A stretch of DNA of 64,000 bases from Polystyrenella longa (GTDB lineage: Bacteria; Planctomycetota; Planctomycetia; Planctomycetales; Planctomycetaceae). A program made the translations under genes and the position numbers. Positions 43,528 through 52,673 of this stretch are shown here, in pieces. The notes under the pieces were generated by a model. That model was not told the DNA's origin and searched no databases. It saw only the letters and a list, made by a program, of their open reading frames with translations. The stretch is taken from the NCBI RefSeq assembly GCF_007750395.1, contig NZ_CP036281.1, positions 4,611,001-4,675,000 on the forward strand. The letters run 5' to 3'. How positions within the stretch are numbered: position 1 is the first letter of the stretch; each line of letters opens with the position of its first letter.

Positions 43528-45126
43528 ATGACAGAAACGTCAGTGGACGCGAATTCTTCCGCTACTTTGAAACAGAAACTCTGGTCTCAGTTTTTCAATA
43601 GCTCTTCCACCAAACAGGTCGCGTTACGACTTGCGGTGGACGTGGTTCTGGCGAATACCGCCCTGTTGTGTGCGGCGATTATCTCGCTGACGGCCACGGG
43701 AAAAATTTCACTATCCAGTCCCATCGGATATATTCTGGACCGATTAAACAGCGAACTGCTTGCCAGCGCAGGTTGGTTCTCGTTCTCGGCTGTGGCCGTG
43801 TTCGCCGTCTGTGGTTTATACAAACCCGTTCCCAGTACTAAAGTCTGGAAACGTCTCTCCACTGTCGCCAGTGCCTGCCTCGTCGGATTCATCCTGAGTG
43901 CGGTGGTCGGCAGCATGGTCTTGGAAAGCACCGCGAAGGTTGTGGGTGCCATCGGCATCGCCTGGGCATTTCTCTATTCATTCGTCACAGCCAGCCGGTT
44001 TTCCCGGATGTACGTGGCTCAACGATATCGGGTGGAACCTCGCCGGTCTCACGTCAAAGAAAAAGTCGAAGACGTCCTCGTCGTCGGCGGAGCTGGATAC
44101 ATTGGTTGCATCGCCACTCGCCAACTTCTGGAAGCAGGCTACCGGGTTCGAGTGCTGGACATGCAACTCTTCGGCATTAACGCTCTCAGCGACGTTCTAA
44201 ACCATCCACGACTCGAAGTGATGCAGGGAGACTTCCGAAATGTGGAAGATGTCGTCCGTAGTCTGAAAGGAATGGACGCCGTCGTTCACCTGGCTGCCAT
44301 CGTGGGCGACCCTGCCTGCTCTTACGATTCCGAAACCACCATCGCCGTCAACTACGCCGCCGCGAAAATGATTGCCCAGCTTTCACGGGCCAATGGAATT
44401 TCTCGATTCATCTTCGCTTCAACCTGTAGTGTATACGGGGCGAGTGACGATATCCGCGACGAGCTCTCAGACCTCAATCCGGTTTCACTTTACGCTACCA
44501 CCAAAATCGATGCCGAAAAGGTCCTGCTGGAAGCGGCGGACGGCGTATTCCAACCCACAATTCTGCGATTCGCAACTGCTTATGGTTGGTCTAACCGACC
44601 TCGCTTTGACCTGGTCGCCAACCTGCTACCAGCTCAAGCCGTTACCGAGAAAAAATACCGTGTCTTCAATGGGGAACAATGGCGTCCCTTCGTTCATACC
44701 GTCGACCTGGCTCGTTCCATCGTGATGTCGCTGCAAGCTCCATTGAGCAAAGTCGGTAGCGAAATCTTTAACGTAGGTGACGAAACTCAGAACTACACAC
44801 TGACCCAACTGGGCCAGATCGTCAAAGAGTTGGCCCCAGACGCCGAGTTCGAAGAAATTCGAAACGACGACGACCCCCGGAACTACCGTGTCAATTTCGA
44901 CAAAATCAAGAACCGCCTCGGTTACCGGGCCTCGGTCAAACTGGAAGACGGAATTCAGGAAATCGTGGATGCTGTTCGCAACGGACAAGTCAGCAACTGG
45001 GCTGATCCGATTTACAGTAACCGGCAACACCTGGAAGATCTCGGCTTGAATATTCTCAAATACGAACCTGCCGTGAACGAACACGAGATGCAAATGACCC
45101 AGAGATTCCTCAACAAAGTGGCTTAA
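43528..45126 (+). CDS. Membrane-anchored NAD-dependent epimerase/dehydratase (CapD-like N-domain plus extended SDR)
   Basis: 532 residues. Residues about 30-155 hold four hydrophobic helices (LAVDVVLANTALLCAAIISL; FSFSAVAVFAVCGLY; STVASACLVGFILSAVVGSM; VGAIGIAWAFLYSFVTAS), as in CapD/WbpM polysaccharide enzymes. A cytoplasmic extended SDR domain follows: VVGGAGYIGCIATRQLL binds NAD, MDAVVHLAAIVGDP and ASTCSVYGAS are family marks, and the catalytic pair is in LYATTKIDAEK. It probably modifies a nucleotide sugar for surface polysaccharide. The pairing is unusual because the SDR half resembles soluble UDP-sugar epimerases, not the CapD dehydratase half. It is followed by a second epimerase gene. 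Confidence 0.85.
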   Translation: MTETSVDANSSATLKQKLWSQFFNSSSTKQVALRLAVDVVLANTALLCAAIISLTATGKISLSSPIGYILDRLNSELLASAGWFSFSAVAVFAVCGLYKPVPSTKVWKRLSTVASACLVGFILSAVVGSMVLESTAKVVGAIGIAWAFLYSFVTASRFSRMYVAQRYRVEPRRSHVKEKVEDVLVVGGAGYIGCIATRQLLEAGYRVRVLDMQLFGINALSDVLNHPRLEVMQGDFRNVEDVVRSLKGMDAVVHLAAIVGDPACSYDSETTIAVNYAAAKMIAQLSRANGISRFIFASTCSVYGASDDIRDELSDLNPVSLYATTKIDAEKVLLEAADGVFQPTILRFATAYGWSNRPRFDLVANLLPAQAVTEKKYRVFNGEQWRPFVHTVDLARSIVMSLQAPLSKVGSEIFNVGDETQNYTLTQLGQIVKELAPDAEFEEIRNDDDPRNYRVNFDKIKNRLGYRASVKLEDGIQEIVDAVRNGQVSNWADPIYSNRQHLEDLGLNILKYEPAVNEHEMQMTQRFLNKVA

Positions 45127-45263
45127 CGGTCCCGGAGAGAATTTCTGTTTCCTGGTTGAAAAGGGTAATAACCCTGCACCGGACTTCGTTATAATAAAAA
45201 CAGCCTGTCACCTTCTCCCGGATCGTAGCAGGTTCCAAGTGGCTCAATCCAAGAACTCGAATC

Positions 45264-46301
45264 ATGACTAAATATCTTGTAACTGGCGCAGCTGGATTTA
45301 TCGGTTCTCACGTCTCGATGCAACTACTCGCTCGGGGCGAAGAAGTTGTTGGTCTGGACAATCTGAATGACTACTACGACGTTCAGCTGAAAAAGAATCG
45401 GCTCGCTCGATTCTCCGATAGTCCGAACTTCACTTTGGTCGGTCTCGATCTCGAAGACCGCGAAGGTGTGGCACGTCTGTTCGAAGAAAATCAATTCGAT
45501 GTCGTGATTAATCTGGCTGCTCAAGCCGGTGTGCGGTATTCACTTGAGAATCCACATGCGTACGTCGACAGTAACATCGTCGGCTTTGTGAACATTCTGG
45601 AAGGTTGCCGCCACAACGGAATTAAACATCTGGTTTATGCCTCTTCGAGTTCCGTCTACGGGGCAAATACATCAATGCCGTTCTCGGTCCACGATAACGT
45701 CGACCACCCCCTGAGCTTGTATGCCGCCAGTAAAAAAGCGAATGAACTGATGGCCCATACTTACAGCCATCTCTACGATTTGCCGACAACCGGCCTTCGT
45801 TTTTTCACGGTCTACGGTCCGTGGGGACGTCCCGATATGGCACTCTTCCTGTTTACAAAAGCGATATTGGAAGGGCGGCCGATCGACGTCTTCAACGAAG
45901 GCAAAATGCAGCGGGACTTCACTTATATTGACGACATCGTCGAAGGAGTGATTCGCGTCGCCGATAATACGGCAGCAGAAAACAGAGACTGGAGCAGTTT
46001 CCGACCCGACCCAGGAACCAGCCGCGCTCCCTTCAAAATCTACAACATCGGAAACAATCAGCCAGTCAAGCTGATGTACATGATTGAGACACTCGAAAAA
46101 TGTCTCGGTCAACGAGCTGTCAAGAATATGTTGCCGATGCAACCGGGCGATGTCCCTGCGACTTATGCCGACGTCGAAGACTTGATTGATGATGTCGGCT
46201 TCAAACCAGCGACTTCCATCGAGACGGGCGTCTCCAACTTTGTACAGTGGTACAAAGAATACTTCGACGTCCGCGACATTCCGTCCCGCGCGACCGCCTA
46301 A
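45264..46301 (+). CDS. NAD-dependent epimerase, UDP-glucuronate 4-epimerase-like
   Basis: 345 residues. [17 protein letters not shown] is the NAD-binding start; [19 protein letters not shown] is characteristic of UDP-glucuronate 4-epimerases (CapI/LspL type). [31 protein letters not shown] and the catalytic YAASKKANE follow, then [18 protein letters not shown] and [12 protein letters not shown]. It would interconvert UDP-glucuronate and UDP-galacturonate in the cytosol for polysaccharide synthesis. It lies 137 bp after the membrane SDR gene. Its stop overlaps the convergent argE stop by 4 bp. Confidence 0.92.
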
Positions 46302-47434
46302 TTCGCCTGAAGGCACCAGTGGTCGATCAGTTTGCTGAACATCGCATGTCCTAACTCAAGTTGCTCCAGAGTAATCCACTCGTCGTGAGTATGGGCTTTC
46401 ATGATGTCCCCAGGGCCGAAGACCACTTTTTCGGTCAATTCGTGGAACGCCGCCCCGTCGGTTCCGTAAGAAACCGTATGCGATTCTGACTTCCCGGCGA
46501 GTTTGAGCATTTGCTGAATGAAGTCTGATTGCGGTTCCACATAAAACGAGGAGTTGATCGCATCAGCGTGAAATTCCAAATCGTGGACTTCCGCCAACTG
46601 CCGCACCCGTTCGATTAATTCCATTCCGTCCATTCCCGGCATTGGTCGGAAATAGACAGTGCAAATACTCTGCGGCGGCGTGATATTGCACGCGAGTGTC
46701 TTATCGTTGATGCCGATGTTCCAACTGATCGTCGGCGGTGAGAACTCGTCATTCTGCCAGCGAGGGTCTTCCAAGGTCTCGTCGTGAATGCATTTCATTT
46801 CCGACAGGAATGGAATCATTTTTAAGTTCGCATTCACTCCTTTGTTGGTACTGGAGTGAGCCGCGACACCTCGGGAGATCGCGCGGAATCCGAAGGTGCC
46901 TTTATGAGCGTGGATCACTTCCAGCATTGTCGGTTCACCGATGATCCCCTTCGTTCCATGCTCGACCATTTCGCGGTAGAGATGTGATTGGGCAGCCACG
47001 TTCTTCGCGCCGATGTATCCAACTTCTTCATCGGCAGTGCAGGTGATGTATACCGGTTGCTTTAATTCGGCTGCTTCCACAGTCGCCGCCGCGCTCAACA
47101 TGCAGGCCAGCGAGCCTTTCATATCACAGCTACCGCGACCGTATAGTTTGCCATCCAGAATGGTCGGCTCAAATGGACCGGGGAAGTCGACATACCAGGG
47201 ATCCGCCGGCACGACATCGTTGTGGGCAAAGAAACCCAGACCCCCAAAACCCTCTCCCTTTTTCGCCACCACACATGACTTGGGAACACCGAATAGGTCA
47301 TCGTAGTTAATTCGCTCGGTCACAAAACCGATCTGCTCTAACTGCTCTGAAACGAAATCAGTGACGGCGACATTGGATGAGCGACTCGTCGACTCAAAGG
47401 TGATCAGTTTCTGGGTCAGTTCAAGCGAGTCCAT
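46298..47434 (-). CDS. argE: Acetylornithine deacetylase (M20 family)
   Basis: 378 residues. Metal-site motifs of M20 amidohydrolases are present: [41 protein letters not shown] with the catalytic Glu, and a late [24 protein letters not shown] is typical of ArgE. It would remove the acetyl group from N-acetylornithine in arginine synthesis; succinyl-diaminopimelate desuccinylase is a less likely reading. Its start lies 18 bp after the end of palindromic element copy 2, downstream of exbD on the same strand. Confidence 0.87.
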
Positions 47435-47448
47435 GAGGGAATACCACT

Positions 47449-47541
47449 CTATAAGCGATCCTGAATTTCTCTGATGGGTCTTGCTGAATCTTATTATGTA
47501 GATTCGAGAACAACCATTACCAGGATTCAGGAGAGGATTTG
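47449..47541 (-). repeat. Palindromic intergenic element, copy 2
   Basis: TCCTGAAT at 47460-47467 is inverted as ATTCAGGA at 47525-47532, with a looser TGATGGGT / CCATTA pairing inside and a perfect 6-bp inner stem (GAATCT, AGATTC, minus strand). It has the same ACCCATCAGA core and GGATCGCTT as the copy at 40183. It lies between exbD and argE. Confidence 0.68.
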
Positions 47542-47653
47542 AAATTTCGCAATTTGTCAGTGAAACTGTCTGGTCTGCAACGATGGTGCAAAACCAGTGA
47601 ATTCATTCGGTTTTTATCTTAACCATTCTCAGCCCGAACAGAAACAGCCCCAC

Positions 47654-48058
47654 TCATTTCTGATCGACGGCAAAACTGACATCCGTCAGACCTTGTTCCG
47701 CACAGGCGTGCATCAAGGGTTCGATCAAGCGGAAGGGGACGTCCTTATCGGTTCGAAAACGAACAGCGGTTTCCGGTTCGGTTCGGCTGATAACCTGCAG
47801 AATTTCTGCACGCGGAACAATGCGACCTCCCAGAGAATAGTCTTCATCAACGGAGACGGTGATGATTAGTCGGTTCGGGTGAGCACGTTCCTCTTTCTGT
47901 GCAAGGACCGCCTCGGGAAGCGATACTTCTCGGGAGGTATCGTGCTGAACAAGCTGACTGGTGACCAGAAAAAAGATCACCAGCAGAAAGACAATGTCGA
48001 TCAACGGGGTGACATTGAATTCAAAACCACCTTCTCTTGGACGGACTGGTATCCGCAT
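47654..48058 (-). CDS. exbD: ExbD/TolR-type biopolymer transport protein
   Basis: 134 residues. The single membrane helix is FNVTPLIDIVFLLVIFFLVTS, with the proton-relay Asp in PLIDIVF conserved. The periplasmic domain ends FRLIEPLMHACAEQGLTDVSFAVD, a normal ExbD fold. With ExbB it converts proton-motive force into force on a TonB-type partner. It begins 2 bp after the exbB stop and is last in the group running from the VWA gene. Confidence 0.93.
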   Translation of the reverse strand: MRIPVRPREGGFEFNVTPLIDIVFLLVIFFLVTSQLVQHDTSREVSLPEAVLAQKEERAHPNRLIITVSVDEDYSLGGRIVPRAEILQVISRTEPETAVRFRTDKDVPFRLIEPLMHACAEQGLTDVSFAVDQK

Positions 48059-48060
48059 AC

Positions 48061-48831
48061 CTATTCCTCACCTTGAGAGGAGGGAGTGCGTGCTGCAGAC
48101 TGTCGCTGTTTCAACTGAGCCCGCCGCCAGGTACTGAAGACATGCTCCGACATGAGGGAGGTCTCGGCAACCAGCTCATCAATTCGGTTCCGAAAAATAG
48201 CGAACGAGGCCAATGCCGGTACGGCCACCCCCAGACCCAGCAAGGTCGTCACCAGAGCACGATAAATCCCTGGAGCCAATTCCGATGGCAGTGGGTTTTC
48301 CTGAACCGTAAACTCAAGAAACGCCAGAATCATCCCCCAGACCGTTCCCAGAAGTCCAAGCATCGGCGCGATTGAACTGATCAGTGAGAGGTATTCGATC
48401 TTGCGATAAAGTCGCGATGCCTGTTGGACACTGGCATCTTCCATCGATTTTTCTATGACGGTGTAACCTAAACCGACTTCATTTAAACCGGCCAAAAGCA
48501 AACTCGCCAGGAAACTCGGTTCTTCTCGACAAGCTTGTTTGGCAGGTTCTAACTGGCCAGTTGTGAGATGTTGATGGACCTGCTCTGCCAATCCCATGGG
48601 CATTAAGGTCTTCCGACGAATGGTCAAAGCGTGCTCAACAATAAGGGCAATCATCGCGATGCTCAGTAGCATGATGACGAAACCGATCGTTCCGCCCGCC
48701 TGCACCAGTTCCTCCAATGACAATTGTGGGGCAACCCGCTCGACAGGTTCTTCCTGAGCCAATAAAGAGGAGGGGAACAGTCCCATAGCGAGGAACATCA
48801 TCAGGAACGTGTAGCTGAATTTCCAGTTCAT
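48061..48831 (-). CDS. exbB: MotA/TolQ/ExbB proton channel protein
   Basis: 256 residues from the ATG at 48831, which opens a signal-like MNWKFSYTFLMMFLAMGLF; an ATG at 48858 is also possible. The helices are GGTIGFVIMLLSIAMIALIVEHAL, SLISSIAPMLGLLGTVWGMILAF and IYRALVTTLLGLGVAVPALASFAIF. The GLLGTVWGM and ALVTTLLGLGVAVPA blocks are the ExbB/TolQ signature, including the Thr pair that lines the proton path. An N-terminal signal peptide ahead of the first channel helix occurs in many ExbB of this type. It is coupled to exbD. Confidence 0.93.
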   Translation of the reverse strand: MNWKFSYTFLMMFLAMGLFPSSLLAQEEPVERVAPQLSLEELVQAGGTIGFVIMLLSIAMIALIVEHALTIRRKTLMPMGLAEQVHQHLTTGQLEPAKQACREEPSFLASLLLAGLNEVGLGYTVIEKSMEDASVQQASRLYRKIEYLSLISSIAPMLGLLGTVWGMILAFLEFTVQENPLPSELAPGIYRALVTTLLGLGVAVPALASFAIFRNRIDELVAETSLMSEHVFSTWRRAQLKQRQSAARTPSSQGEE

Positions 48832-48915
48832 ATTTAGCTTCCAGAGGACCGCTTCCATTCAGCAGTCTGGTCGTATTCGTATTTAAATACCGCAAGCAGA
48901 TAATGTGTTTGAGAT

Positions 48916-49998
48916 CTAATCAATCTGAATTCGTTCCCGGGCAGTCTTTCCGGCGGGGCTTTCAGGATACTCTTCTGCCAATTCTCTGTAAACAATCAGC
49001 GCCTGTCGAGAGAGCCCCAATCGAACTAAAGCTTCCGCCGCAAGCAATTGAGCGTCGCTGGAAAGTAGATGATCGACCGCCTGATTCGCCTTCGGCCATA
49101 ACCAGCGGACAGCCGCGTGATCGAACTCCAATTGTTTCGCGTAAGCGGTTGCCAATAAGTAGTAAGGCCCCGCACGGTCCAGATCCTGGAGCGACTCAAT
49201 TCGTGATTCCCACCGTTGCAGTTCGATCTCGGAGAACCGCCCTTCGGCAACGTATTGCCGCCAAATCTGCATCTGAGCAGAACTCTGAATACGATTATTC
49301 GTGTTTCGACTTAATTGATCCAACCTGCGAGAAACCGTTAAGTCCTCCGAGTCCCGAAAGAGCAACCAACTGGCTCCCAGAAGCTGAGCGACCGGGGCGT
49401 TATCCACCAACCAGCGACGGGCGGTTGTTTCCGGCACTTCGCCCGTGAATGCAATCGGGCCAGACTCGGAACCTTCTTCCGGAATTCGCCAGTTCAACGG
49501 AATCAAATGAAAATATCGCGTATCCTCATCACTGGCACTTAAAGCGATGAATCGGTTTCCCGCTTTTTCGTAATCATAAGAGGCGAGCGCCAGTTTAATC
49601 TGTAATGCCAGTAACTCCCGACGCACCCATCCCCGAGGTTCGATCTTGAGGGCTGTTTCCAAGCTACGTTCTGCCTCAGTATATTTTTTCTGTTCATATA
49701 GCTCGACACCCCGCTGATGTTCGGGGCTTTGCTGATAACGCGTTTGCAGAATGTCCTCCGCCGAGAAGTATTGAACCCGCTGGTTCGGCCCGGTGCGAAA
49801 CTGCAATTCCTCCCCGTTGAAATCGACAATTTCTCCGTTGAGTTGCGTCGTTAATCCGGTGTTGGGTTTGCGAATTTCAATCTGATCCGTGAGGGGTGCC
49901 TGGCCTTTTTGTGCCAGCCCCGGTGTCACTATCAGCAGACTCACTAAGAGGACAGCAACCAGCAGACGCAAAATAATAGAGATGTCTTGGCGATGCAT
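48916..49998 (-). CDS. Secreted or periplasmic TPR-type protein
   Basis: 360 residues. The N-terminus has a signal peptide (ILRLLVAVLLVSLLIVTPGLAQ). A short beta region (LNGEIVDFNGEELQFRTG) precedes TPR-like helices: HQRGVELYEQKKYTEAERSLETALKIEP and, near the C-terminus, AEALVRLGLSRQALIVYRELAEEYPESPAGKTARERI. TPR units bind partner proteins. It sits between the VWA and ExbB genes with about 60-bp gaps on one strand, so it is probably a part of the same envelope machine, comparable in position to YbgF/CpoB in the Tol system. It has no enzyme motif. Confidence 0.75.
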   Translation of the reverse strand: MHRQDISIILRLLVAVLLVSLLIVTPGLAQKGQAPLTDQIEIRKPNTGLTTQLNGEIVDFNGEELQFRTGPNQRVQYFSAEDILQTRYQQSPEHQRGVELYEQKKYTEAERSLETALKIEPRGWVRRELLALQIKLALASYDYEKAGNRFIALSASDEDTRYFHLIPLNWRIPEEGSESGPIAFTGEVPETTARRWLVDNAPVAQLLGASWLLFRDSEDLTVSRRLDQLSRNTNNRIQSSAQMQIWRQYVAEGRFSEIELQRWESRIESLQDLDRAGPYYLLATAYAKQLEFDHAAVRWLWPKANQAVDHLLSSDAQLLAAEALVRLGLSRQALIVYRELAEEYPESPAGKTARERIQID

Positions 49999-50057
49999 AA
50001 TTGACGATCTTGAGATGTCGTGTATCGTTGGTGAAGTAACCAGAAGGGAATCCGTTT

Positions 50058-51113
50058 TTAAAAACGGGTGATATCAAAGTATCGGTACAGCCCACCAGTA
50101 TCTGTTGAAAGACGCTGAAGAAAGTTTCGCTCGTGAGTCCCGGTACCGGCGATCTGTGGCCCTTTTCCGAATTCGATACAGTTGATGATCGTTCCTTGAC
50201 TCATTCGCTGAATGCGGCGTAAATCGACGCGAGAGAGTTTCGTGTCCGCGTCGGTAAGAAAATAGATCACATCCGGATGCAGACTAATCGCAAGATCAAG
50301 TGCCTTCAGATGGTCAGTCCCTCGATCGGCACGAGTCTGATCAATGAAATTGCGGGCCTTATTCAAATTGAGTTCGGAGACCGGCAGCATCTTGATCCCT
50401 TTGACTGCATCCTCCTCGGAGCCGAGGGCGCGGGTCGATTCATGATAAAAGATGACCTGAAACTGATGTATTGAAGAGAGCGAATTCAAACTTCGTTTCA
50501 ATTCCGACTTCGCCACCGCCAGCGGTTTGACTTTGGATTCCAGGAACGTCCCACTCATGCTGGAGGAGCGGTCGAGCAGAAAGATCACTTTCTCACCCTG
50601 AGTTCGTATACCCAGAAAGGCGCTTTCTCCAATTCCCAACGGAGCGGTTGTCTGGGGAGGAAGGTCGCCGGACGCTTCCTGCGAAAGTGAGTCGCCACTT
50701 AAAAGGGCTTCTCTACTCAGTCCCGTATCTACAGAAGTTGGAAGTCCTGAGCCCAGAATTGGTTCTGGCTCGTCTAGCGGGGTGACTGTCAACTCTTCCG
50801 GTAGGTTGTCGAACGGATTTACTTCCTCCGGGGTTTCTGCAGCTTCTTGCTCATTCGCTTCGGAACTGGTTGCTTCAGATTCATTTTCGTTCGGTCGCTG
50901 CTCGAACTCGTCTGTTTGAGCCGATTTGATTTCCAAACCGACCTTATTGAAATTCGCCAGCGATCCGTTCCGATTGCCCAATCCCGACTCCGGTGCCCCA
51001 AACCAGTAAAGCAACATCGCCAGGACTAACCCATGCAACAGAATGGACGAAGTCCAACTTTGCAGCAGCGTACGGCCATGAGATTCTGATTTTTCGAAGG
51101 GAGAAGTCGCCAT
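50058..51113 (-). CDS. VWA-domain membrane protein with a TonB-like SxxxH helix
   Basis: 351 residues from the ATG at 51113. A single N-terminal helix, SWTSSILLHGLVLAMLLYWF, contains S-I-L-L-H, the SxxxH pattern that TonB uses to engage ExbB/ExbD. A long acidic, Pro/Glu-rich periplasmic linker (about 55-160) follows. The C-terminus is a von Willebrand A domain: VIFLLDRSSSM (MIDAS DxSxS), RGTDHLKALDLAI with the MIDAS Thr-region, and VIYFLTDAD. There is no TonB C-terminal domain. The layout is helix, stiff linker and terminal domain, as in TonB, with VWA replacing the receptor-binding part. It starts the TPR-exbB-exbD group. Confidence 0.83.
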   Translation of the reverse strand: MATSPFEKSESHGRTLLQSWTSSILLHGLVLAMLLYWFGAPESGLGNRNGSLANFNKVGLEIKSAQTDEFEQRPNENESEATSSEANEQEAAETPEEVNPFDNLPEELTVTPLDEPEPILGSGLPTSVDTGLSREALLSGDSLSQEASGDLPPQTTAPLGIGESAFLGIRTQGEKVIFLLDRSSSMSGTFLESKVKPLAVAKSELKRSLNSLSSIHQFQVIFYHESTRALGSEEDAVKGIKMLPVSELNLNKARNFIDQTRADRGTDHLKALDLAISLHPDVIYFLTDADTKLSRVDLRRIQRMSQGTIINCIEFGKGPQIAGTGTHERNFLQRLSTDTGGLYRYFDITRF

Positions 51114-51315: not shown

Positions 51316-52497
51316 TCAGCCCTGTTCGTCCTCTTTGCCTAAGCCCAGCAAACGCCGCCAGTTACCACCAGCAGCGGGATCGGCTCCACCGACCAGATTC
51401 GGATCCCCATTAGGTTTTTCAATCTGGCCACCCCGATTCATGGAATTCGGGTCGGAAGGATCCACGCCGAGTCGTTTTAGAATGCGTTCCGCGTTCGCCT
51501 CCAGTTGGCGAATCCGCATTTCATCGCGTCCCAGTTTGGCCCGCTCAACCGCGATAGAGACTTCAGCCAGACGCAGTTTGGTTTCCAACTGCGTTTGCAG
51601 ACTCATTAAAGTTTCCTGCATTGCTTGAGGACTTTGAGCGATTACTTCCCAATTCATGTCCAGCTTGTGGACGGAAGTAATGTAGTTCAGCAGACGGGAA
51701 ATGTATTCATCACGTTCTTCCAGAGCATGTGCGATTTCATTATGCGATGCATTTTGAAGATCAATGTCTTTCAGACCTTCGGGAATCAACGCAGCCATCT
51801 GTTGAAGAATAGCGGCCTCTTTCGATGCGCTGTCTCCACTGATCGACGAGGGCTGAGGTTCCACGGGAACAGCCGGATCATTTCCGGCCATTGAAGGCGA
51901 ACTGGCCTGCGGAGGAACTTCGCCCGTCCCAGACATGAGGCTCTGTTTAATCGAATCCCAATTCGACAAATCACCGTCGAGGGCAAACTTCTCTGCCGGA
52001 TTCTGCTGAGAAACCTCTTCCTGAAACAGGTTGTCGGGGATTTCGACATTGCCATTTTCGAAATCAGGATGCGTCTCTGTTGACTCGTTGGACACAGATG
52101 GCTGAACCTGCGGTGTAATTGCGGGCTCAACGACGACCGGCATCGTGGGAACCATCAACTGCTGTTCGCGCACTGTCTGCGAAAGATGGACGATCAGATC
52201 GCGTACTTCACCAATTTGGACTTCGATGCGGCCGAAAGAATTGTTGGCCTGCAGCGCGTCCCATTGCTCGATGAGACGGTGCAGGTCCTCCTGTATCGGT
52301 TCCTGTTTGGAATTCGATTTCTTCGGTGGAAGCGGTGGAGCTGGCGTCGTCGCGCAATTAATCAAGGCGCGGTCGACCCCCAATCGATGCAGTCGATCAA
52401 GCTGCTCTGCTGCACGTTCTAACCTGGCGGTTAGCGCATCAACAATCGCATCTTTCTCTTCTATCTGTGATTGGAGGAGATCCAGTTCCGAGGACAT
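51316..52497 (-). CDS. Coiled-coil protein, function unknown
   Basis: 393 residues from MSSELDLLQSQIEEKDAIVDALTARLERAAEQLDRL, a heptad-rich start; an ATG 15 codons upstream is possible. The middle is Pro/Gln/Ser-rich and disordered (PAPPLPPKKSNS, VEPAITPQVQPSVS). A second coiled coil lies at about 280-350 (LQTQLETKLRLAEVSIAVERAKLGRDEMRIRQLEANAERIL). The end GGNWRRLLGLGKEDEQ is basic-hydrophobic. No signal or membrane helix, so it is cytosolic. It is 202 bp upstream of the VWA gene on the same strand. I do not recognise the family. Confidence 0.68.
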   Translation of the reverse strand: MSSELDLLQSQIEEKDAIVDALTARLERAAEQLDRLHRLGVDRALINCATTPAPPLPPKKSNSKQEPIQEDLHRLIEQWDALQANNSFGRIEVQIGEVRDLIVHLSQTVREQQLMVPTMPVVVEPAITPQVQPSVSNESTETHPDFENGNVEIPDNLFQEEVSQQNPAEKFALDGDLSNWDSIKQSLMSGTGEVPPQASSPSMAGNDPAVPVEPQPSSISGDSASKEAAILQQMAALIPEGLKDIDLQNASHNEIAHALEERDEYISRLLNYITSVHKLDMNWEVIAQSPQAMQETLMSLQTQLETKLRLAEVSIAVERAKLGRDEMRIRQLEANAERILKRLGVDPSDPNSMNRGGQIEKPNGDPNLVGGADPAAGGNWRRLLGLGKEDEQG

Positions 52498-52673
52498 AAC
52501 CAGGCTTCGTATCGAGGGTGAGTCGCATTCCTCCGTAAACATCCTTCCATCGTGGGGGCCAATCGATGGAATTCAACGGAGTTTCATACCCTGAATCTAG
52601 CTCGGAAATGTGCCTTTCACGCTTAATTGTTAAGGATTCCCGTAACAGACTTTGCCTGATTGGGGCAATCATT

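Follow-up and report, generated by a model that had tools for sequence, protein, structure and literature searches.

The well-characterized force arms that work on ExbBD/TolQR motors are of two kinds only, TonB and TolA. Cryo-EM structures from E. coli reveal a Ser-Trp-Pro relay in ExbB/TolQ that contacts Ser16/His20 of TonB (PMC12215075). In June 2025, Williams-Jones et al. (PMC12204202) described a vWA force-transducer family in PVC bacteria, whose genes often lie near a TPR gene, a tolQ-like gene and a pair of tolR-like genes. Members of this family are marked by an SHLS-type N-terminal transmembrane helix (TMH), a disordered linker in which a strand, the motor box, is predicted, and a C-terminal vWA domain; in an AF3 model, the His of the TMH lies on the motor at the site used by TolA and TonB. 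No phenotype for the vWA system was found in the literature searched; a 2026 review cites PMC12204202 and does not discuss the vWA family, and papers on essential genes in P. limnophila and Verrucomicrobium say nothing of the system in their main text.

The locus analyzed here is a member of this published, uncharacterized family, with one exbD instead of two. It has in common with the family the SxxxH/SHLS helix, a linker predicted to be disordered, the C-terminal vWA domain and the TPR, tolQ-like and tolR-like neighbors; it differs in that exbD is single in its genus, whereas most relatives with the operon have two. A preliminary description of the window (the whole 64,000-nucleotide stretch of Polystyrenella longa DNA that was analyzed) had presented the locus as a new envelope system, a claim that has to be given up since the family, its gene neighbors and the AF3 His contact are already in PMC12204202. 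What is added here is quantified conservation, MIDAS invariance, a D-box-like island, partner-side residues, linkage to a LolA-like gene, the single exbD, and a second, phylum-wide SxxxH-vWA lineage.

The four-gene cluster vWA-TPR-ExbB-ExbD occupies positions 51113-47654 on the minus strand of the window, with all four genes placed and ordered as first described. The vWA force-transducer gene (50058-51113; 351 aa, P0001) is followed after 59 bp by a gene for a predicted secreted TPR protein (48916-49998; P0002) with a signal peptide, a small beta domain (residues 38-87) and a TPR superhelix. An exbB/tolQ-like gene (48061-48858) comes next, separated by 2 bp from an exbD/tolR-like gene (47654-48058). 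Both of these gaps agree with the preliminary description; the 85 bp that it gave between the TPR gene and exbB is in fact 84 bp and is obtained from the second possible exbB start (48831) only, the gap to the first exbB ATG being 57 bp. ExbB and ExbD are both over the Pfam cut-offs (MotA_ExbB, 1.7e-27; ExbD, 3.3e-21). Neighboring genes in the window encode an M20 peptidase, epimerases, a 2-hydroxyacid dehydrogenase, a phosphotriesterase-family protein and coiled-coil proteins. Past exbD (47434-47654), where the operon of most relatives continues with another, diverged exbD, the window goes on to the M20 peptidase gene. On the other side of the operon, upstream of vWA at 51316-52542 on the minus strand, is a gene for a 408-aa coiled-coil-like protein with no Pfam family over cut-off, which in a 40-locus sample recurs only in a same-genus locus (L038). 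The plus strand carries, at 43528-46301, a pair of genes for NAD-dependent sugar epimerases/dehydratases, and one of the two products has a hydrophobic N-terminal region.

The N-terminal transmembrane helix of the vWA protein, as modeled by AF2, covers residues 17-38 (51000-51065, minus strand). Its sequence, SWTSSILLHGLVLAMLLYW, contains S23 and H27 of an SxxxH motif (S23-I-L-L-H27; 51033-51047, minus strand), the same motif as S16/H20 of TonB and S18/H22 of TolA. The motif is invariant in 41/41 aligned vWA proteins, most of them ~30% identical to the window's, and S23 and H27 are the sole invariant residues N-terminal to the vWA domain in this alignment. Sequence trimming was anchored on SxxxH, so the alignment is not fully independent, but an untrimmed scan of genome contigs recovered the motif in 77/80 loci and the control rate was 2/425 among unrelated N-terminal membrane or signal helices from the same loci. 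The conservation of SxxxH is therefore settled, and its presence in vWA proteins is not due to chance. At the three loci without it (L134, L152 and L155), the frame that was read has no membrane helix at its N-terminus, and one of them, L134, is truncated close to the end of a contig. Loss of the SxxxH residues in orthologues had been named beforehand as an observation that would count against the original idea, which has survived it. Outside Ser and His, a Leu is present at H+7 in 18/41 of the aligned proteins and there is no conserved Ser at H+11; lower conservation at these SHLS positions has also been reported for Ton (PMC12215075). Immediately after the helix, at alignment column 41, a Cys is present in 27/41 relatives (often as RSC), a conceivable disulfide or lipid site, and the window's protein is without it.

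The linker that follows is acidic, with a net charge of -20 over 122 residues, and has low pLDDT in the AF2 model. It had been called long, acidic and Pro-rich, wording that is right as to charge and mildly overstated as to proline, which makes up ~10% of residues as against 26% in the linker of E. coli TonB. The distance from the His to the MIDAS is near-constant (median 145.5 residues, n = 110). A conserved island is present in the linker at the D-box/motor-box position, residues 55-63 (50925-50951, minus strand), reading FNKVGLEIK here with the consensus FRxVGI, and F/Y-R-x-V-G-I in relatives. It starts 28 residues past the His, compared with 25 past His20 for the TonB D-box (ISVTMVT) and 27 past His22 for the TolA strand. 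A loose xGIxx pattern finds the island in 87/108 relatives, and the distance from the His to the Gly is mostly 27-33 residues; the stricter pattern RxVGI was rejected, since 42 relatives escaped it. By analogy with the TonB D-box (PMC10907165), we infer that the island may bind ExbD; in the AF2 monomer no strand is formed at 55-63.

The vWA domain (residues 163-351; 50061-50627, minus strand) was delimited from the AF2 model and Foldseek. Its Pfam score of 22.2 bits is below the gathering score of 27; it has profile matches to PDB vWA chains. For the AF2 model, 41 sequences from the window and the loci were used; pLDDT exceeds 90 in most of the 163-351 segment, and vWA structures are matched in Foldseek at 1e-11, including inter-alpha-inhibitor heavy chains and BatB (3ibs). 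The MIDAS is intact, as the preliminary description had it. Its five residues, D181, S183 and S185 of DxSxS (50559-50573), Thr266 (50316-50318) and Asp288 (50250-50252), all on the minus strand, are invariant in the 41 aligned proteins, and DxSxSM occurs in 112/112 distinct relatives. Because the MIDAS is invariant, the sequences argue that the vWA domain would hold a ligand via a metal at this site. The adhesion function that the preliminary description gave to the domain goes further than this and was set aside.

On the motor side, the proton-carrying Asp21 of ExbD is conserved in 99/99 sequences. In ExbB, T172 and T205 are present in all ungapped rows. By alignment with TolQ and ExbB of E. 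coli K-12, S66 (ExbB Ser34/TolQ Ser28) and P214 (Pro190/Pro187) are conserved in 62/62. At the position of the relay Trp (ExbB Trp38/TolQ Trp32), at least 59/62 vWA-system ExbBs have V, A, I or L, so that docking cannot match E. coli exactly. Of three other ExbB paralogues in the window's genome, all have P214 and two have S66; these residues are thus not specific to the vWA partner. The Trp is replaced in all three paralogues, and its replacement is likewise not specific to the vWA-linked motor.

Searches were carried out family by family in the window's genome, a single contig of 6.1 Mb with a completeness of 99.95%. TonB_C (PF03544), the receptor Plug and TolB_N had no match in it, with control families positive, and the vWA protein itself had no TonB_C in a Pfam search. 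It had been suggested that proton-motive force is transmitted to the vWA domain and not to a TonB receptor. The absence of a canonical receptor bears out the second half, and the first is supported as a prediction, namely a TonB/TolA-type transducer on ExbBD with a vWA domain in place of the TonB C-terminus. The genome contains six MotA/ExbB loci, one of them (L079) a flagellar-type motA with motB. Another of the six (L080; G000:C1:70000-84000) is a second motor operon, in which genes for a 1149-aa TPR protein and a 416-aa TPR protein related to P0002 are joined by an exbB and a pair of exbD genes; no gene for a transducer lies near it. At G000:C1:2015578-2016444 (L083:6573-7601) there is a second SxxxH-vWA gene, an orphan with the helix STFVH. 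Its lineage (L083, L167-L186) is found across Planctomycetota, with SxxxH in 21/21 and DxSxSM in 20/21, and exbB and two exbD are adjacent in 12/21 loci. It shares the SxxxH helix with the window's vWA protein, but has diverged from it in sequence.

Among 130 good genomes of the order, a vWA homologue was present in 129 (at E ≤ 0.001, a tally that may include some paralogues), and 126 had the TPR protein. By a hand count from best E-values (orthologues at least 196 bits, next tier at most 152), 116 had an ExbB orthologue, often unlinked to the vWA gene. The architecture is genuine and all but universal in the order. Approximately 14/130 genomes have kept the vWA gene with no close ExbB orthologue, which means that a fraction of the vWA proteins must work with a different motor or with no motor. 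Conservation of gene order was the other point on which the original idea could have failed, and it held up. The order vWA-TPR-exbB-exbD(-exbD) occurs in 16/40 loci, in a sample of one or a few loci per genus, the rest having vWA with TPR or alone, and the whole operon is within the fetched stretch in 42/80 loci from genome contigs, some of these stretches being ended by contig ends. Orthologues of unlinked genes usually persist elsewhere in the genome. One genome (G150) has the vWA and TPR genes at 1.05 Mb and exbB at 7.13 Mb, and in another (G148) the genes are at three separate places.

We consider it probable that these genes specify a transducer that spans the envelope and is powered by proton-motive force, comprising an ExbBD motor, docking by SxxxH and a vWA arm that acts on an envelope partner. 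ExbB and ExbD would constitute the inner-membrane motor, on which the vWA protein would dock at ExbB by its SxxxH helix, like TonB and TolA. The periplasmic domains of ExbD may capture the strand past the helix, as with the TonB D-box, and the motor would pull on the acidic, flexible linker of ~110 residues. The vWA domain would then grip a periplasmic or outer-membrane partner through the MIDAS metal, and force would reach that partner, with the TPR protein as a putative dedicated periplasmic partner or adaptor. As a prediction from sequence, motor coupling of the vWA protein is well supported because the motor residues are intact, the ExbB Ser and Pro are kept, SxxxH is invariant and the genes co-occur. 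A role in envelope maintenance is more likely than one in nutrient uptake.

A specific form of this model is that the system replaces Tol-Pal and stabilizes or constricts the outer membrane in budding division, in a lineage that is not known to have FtsZ. The helix motif, the motor and a nearby TPR protein are shared with TolQ-TolR-TolA, the motor has Tol-like homology (TIGR02796, 1.3e-21), the TPR protein has a weak YbgF/CpoB match (7.5e-07), and the vWA gene is near-universal in the order. TolB_N is unmatched in the genome, yet one Pal-like OmpA lipoprotein is present (L165). However, the gene order is other than tolQ-tolR-tolA-tolB-pal and the C-terminal domain is a different one, neither pal nor tolB is linked to the operon, and nothing connects the vWA protein with the OmpA lipoprotein. 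In Foldseek, the TPR model gave a generic match, which assigns no function. Replacement of Tol-Pal is possible, if on balance doubtful.

The vWA protein might instead sit in the ExbB groove as a regulator that gates or localizes the motor and passes no force. Contact through SxxxH has been proposed for TonB to serve localization or signaling and not as a force handle (PMC10907165, PMC12215075). The D-box-like island and the near-constant linker nevertheless fit a tether, and we regard a purely regulatory role as unlikely.

A third possibility concerns a predicted periplasmic LolA/DUF2092-like gene. Neighbor clustering showed that in 25/99 loci it immediately precedes the vWA gene and has the same orientation; profile search found it in 130/130 good genomes, usually in one copy, and at least 61 genomes, from 20 genera, have the two genes side by side, as a comparison of positions by hand showed. 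These findings, and the divergent DUF11 and other secreted-protein genes beyond the LolA-like gene, are what would be said for a role of the vWA motor in the trafficking of outer-membrane lipoproteins or surface proteins, with the LolA-like protein as periplasmic carrier. In the window's genome, however, the gene is ~670 kb from the vWA gene (G000:C1:3993311-3994438; L197:5312-6439), where, at 3.99 Mb, the divergent DUF11 and other secreted-protein genes lie beside it, and its homology to LolA is weak, with 6e-4 as the best value and a probability of 33% in hhalign. A firm LolA identity was sought in several ways and the similarity stayed weak. The main text of PMC12204202 makes no mention of LolA. 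We judge the trafficking role to be decidedly unlikely, and its explicit version, a proton-driven vWA arm that acts on lipoprotein or surface-protein export in partnership with the adjacent LolA-like carrier, to be quite improbable. If true, it would be the first ExbBD-type motor for lipoprotein traffic. We know of no earlier case of such a motor.

Ton-type nutrient uptake by unusual receptors would account for the SxxxH helix and ExbBD, and the helix motif, linker, motor subunits and D-box position are all shared with TonB-ExbB-ExbD. The system differs from it in having no TonB_C and no receptor plug in a 99.95% complete genome in which controls were positive, in lacking the ExbB relay Trp and in its lower linker Pro. 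Canonical Ton receptors are largely refuted as the target, and uptake through unusual ones is very improbable. A Bat-type system (BatA/BatB vWA, TPR protein, MoxR, DUF58), suggested by the vWA domain, the adjacent TPR gene and the BatB structure among the Foldseek matches, was set aside as scarcely credible, with neither MoxR nor DUF58 found in the window neighborhood, an ExbBD motor present, BatA/BatB topology in the membrane unlike that of the window's vWA protein and, to our knowledge, neither ExbBD nor SxxxH among Bat features.

The proposed trans-envelope transducer is directly testable through the invariant S23, H27, MIDAS and ExbD D21, together with Planctopirus limnophila, a tractable relative with a published transposon library (PMC10632474). 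Beside TonB and TolA, the vWA arm would be a third kind. That such an arm is found in nearly every genome of an order, with no Plug or TolB_N found in the window's organism, implies an important proton-powered envelope process.
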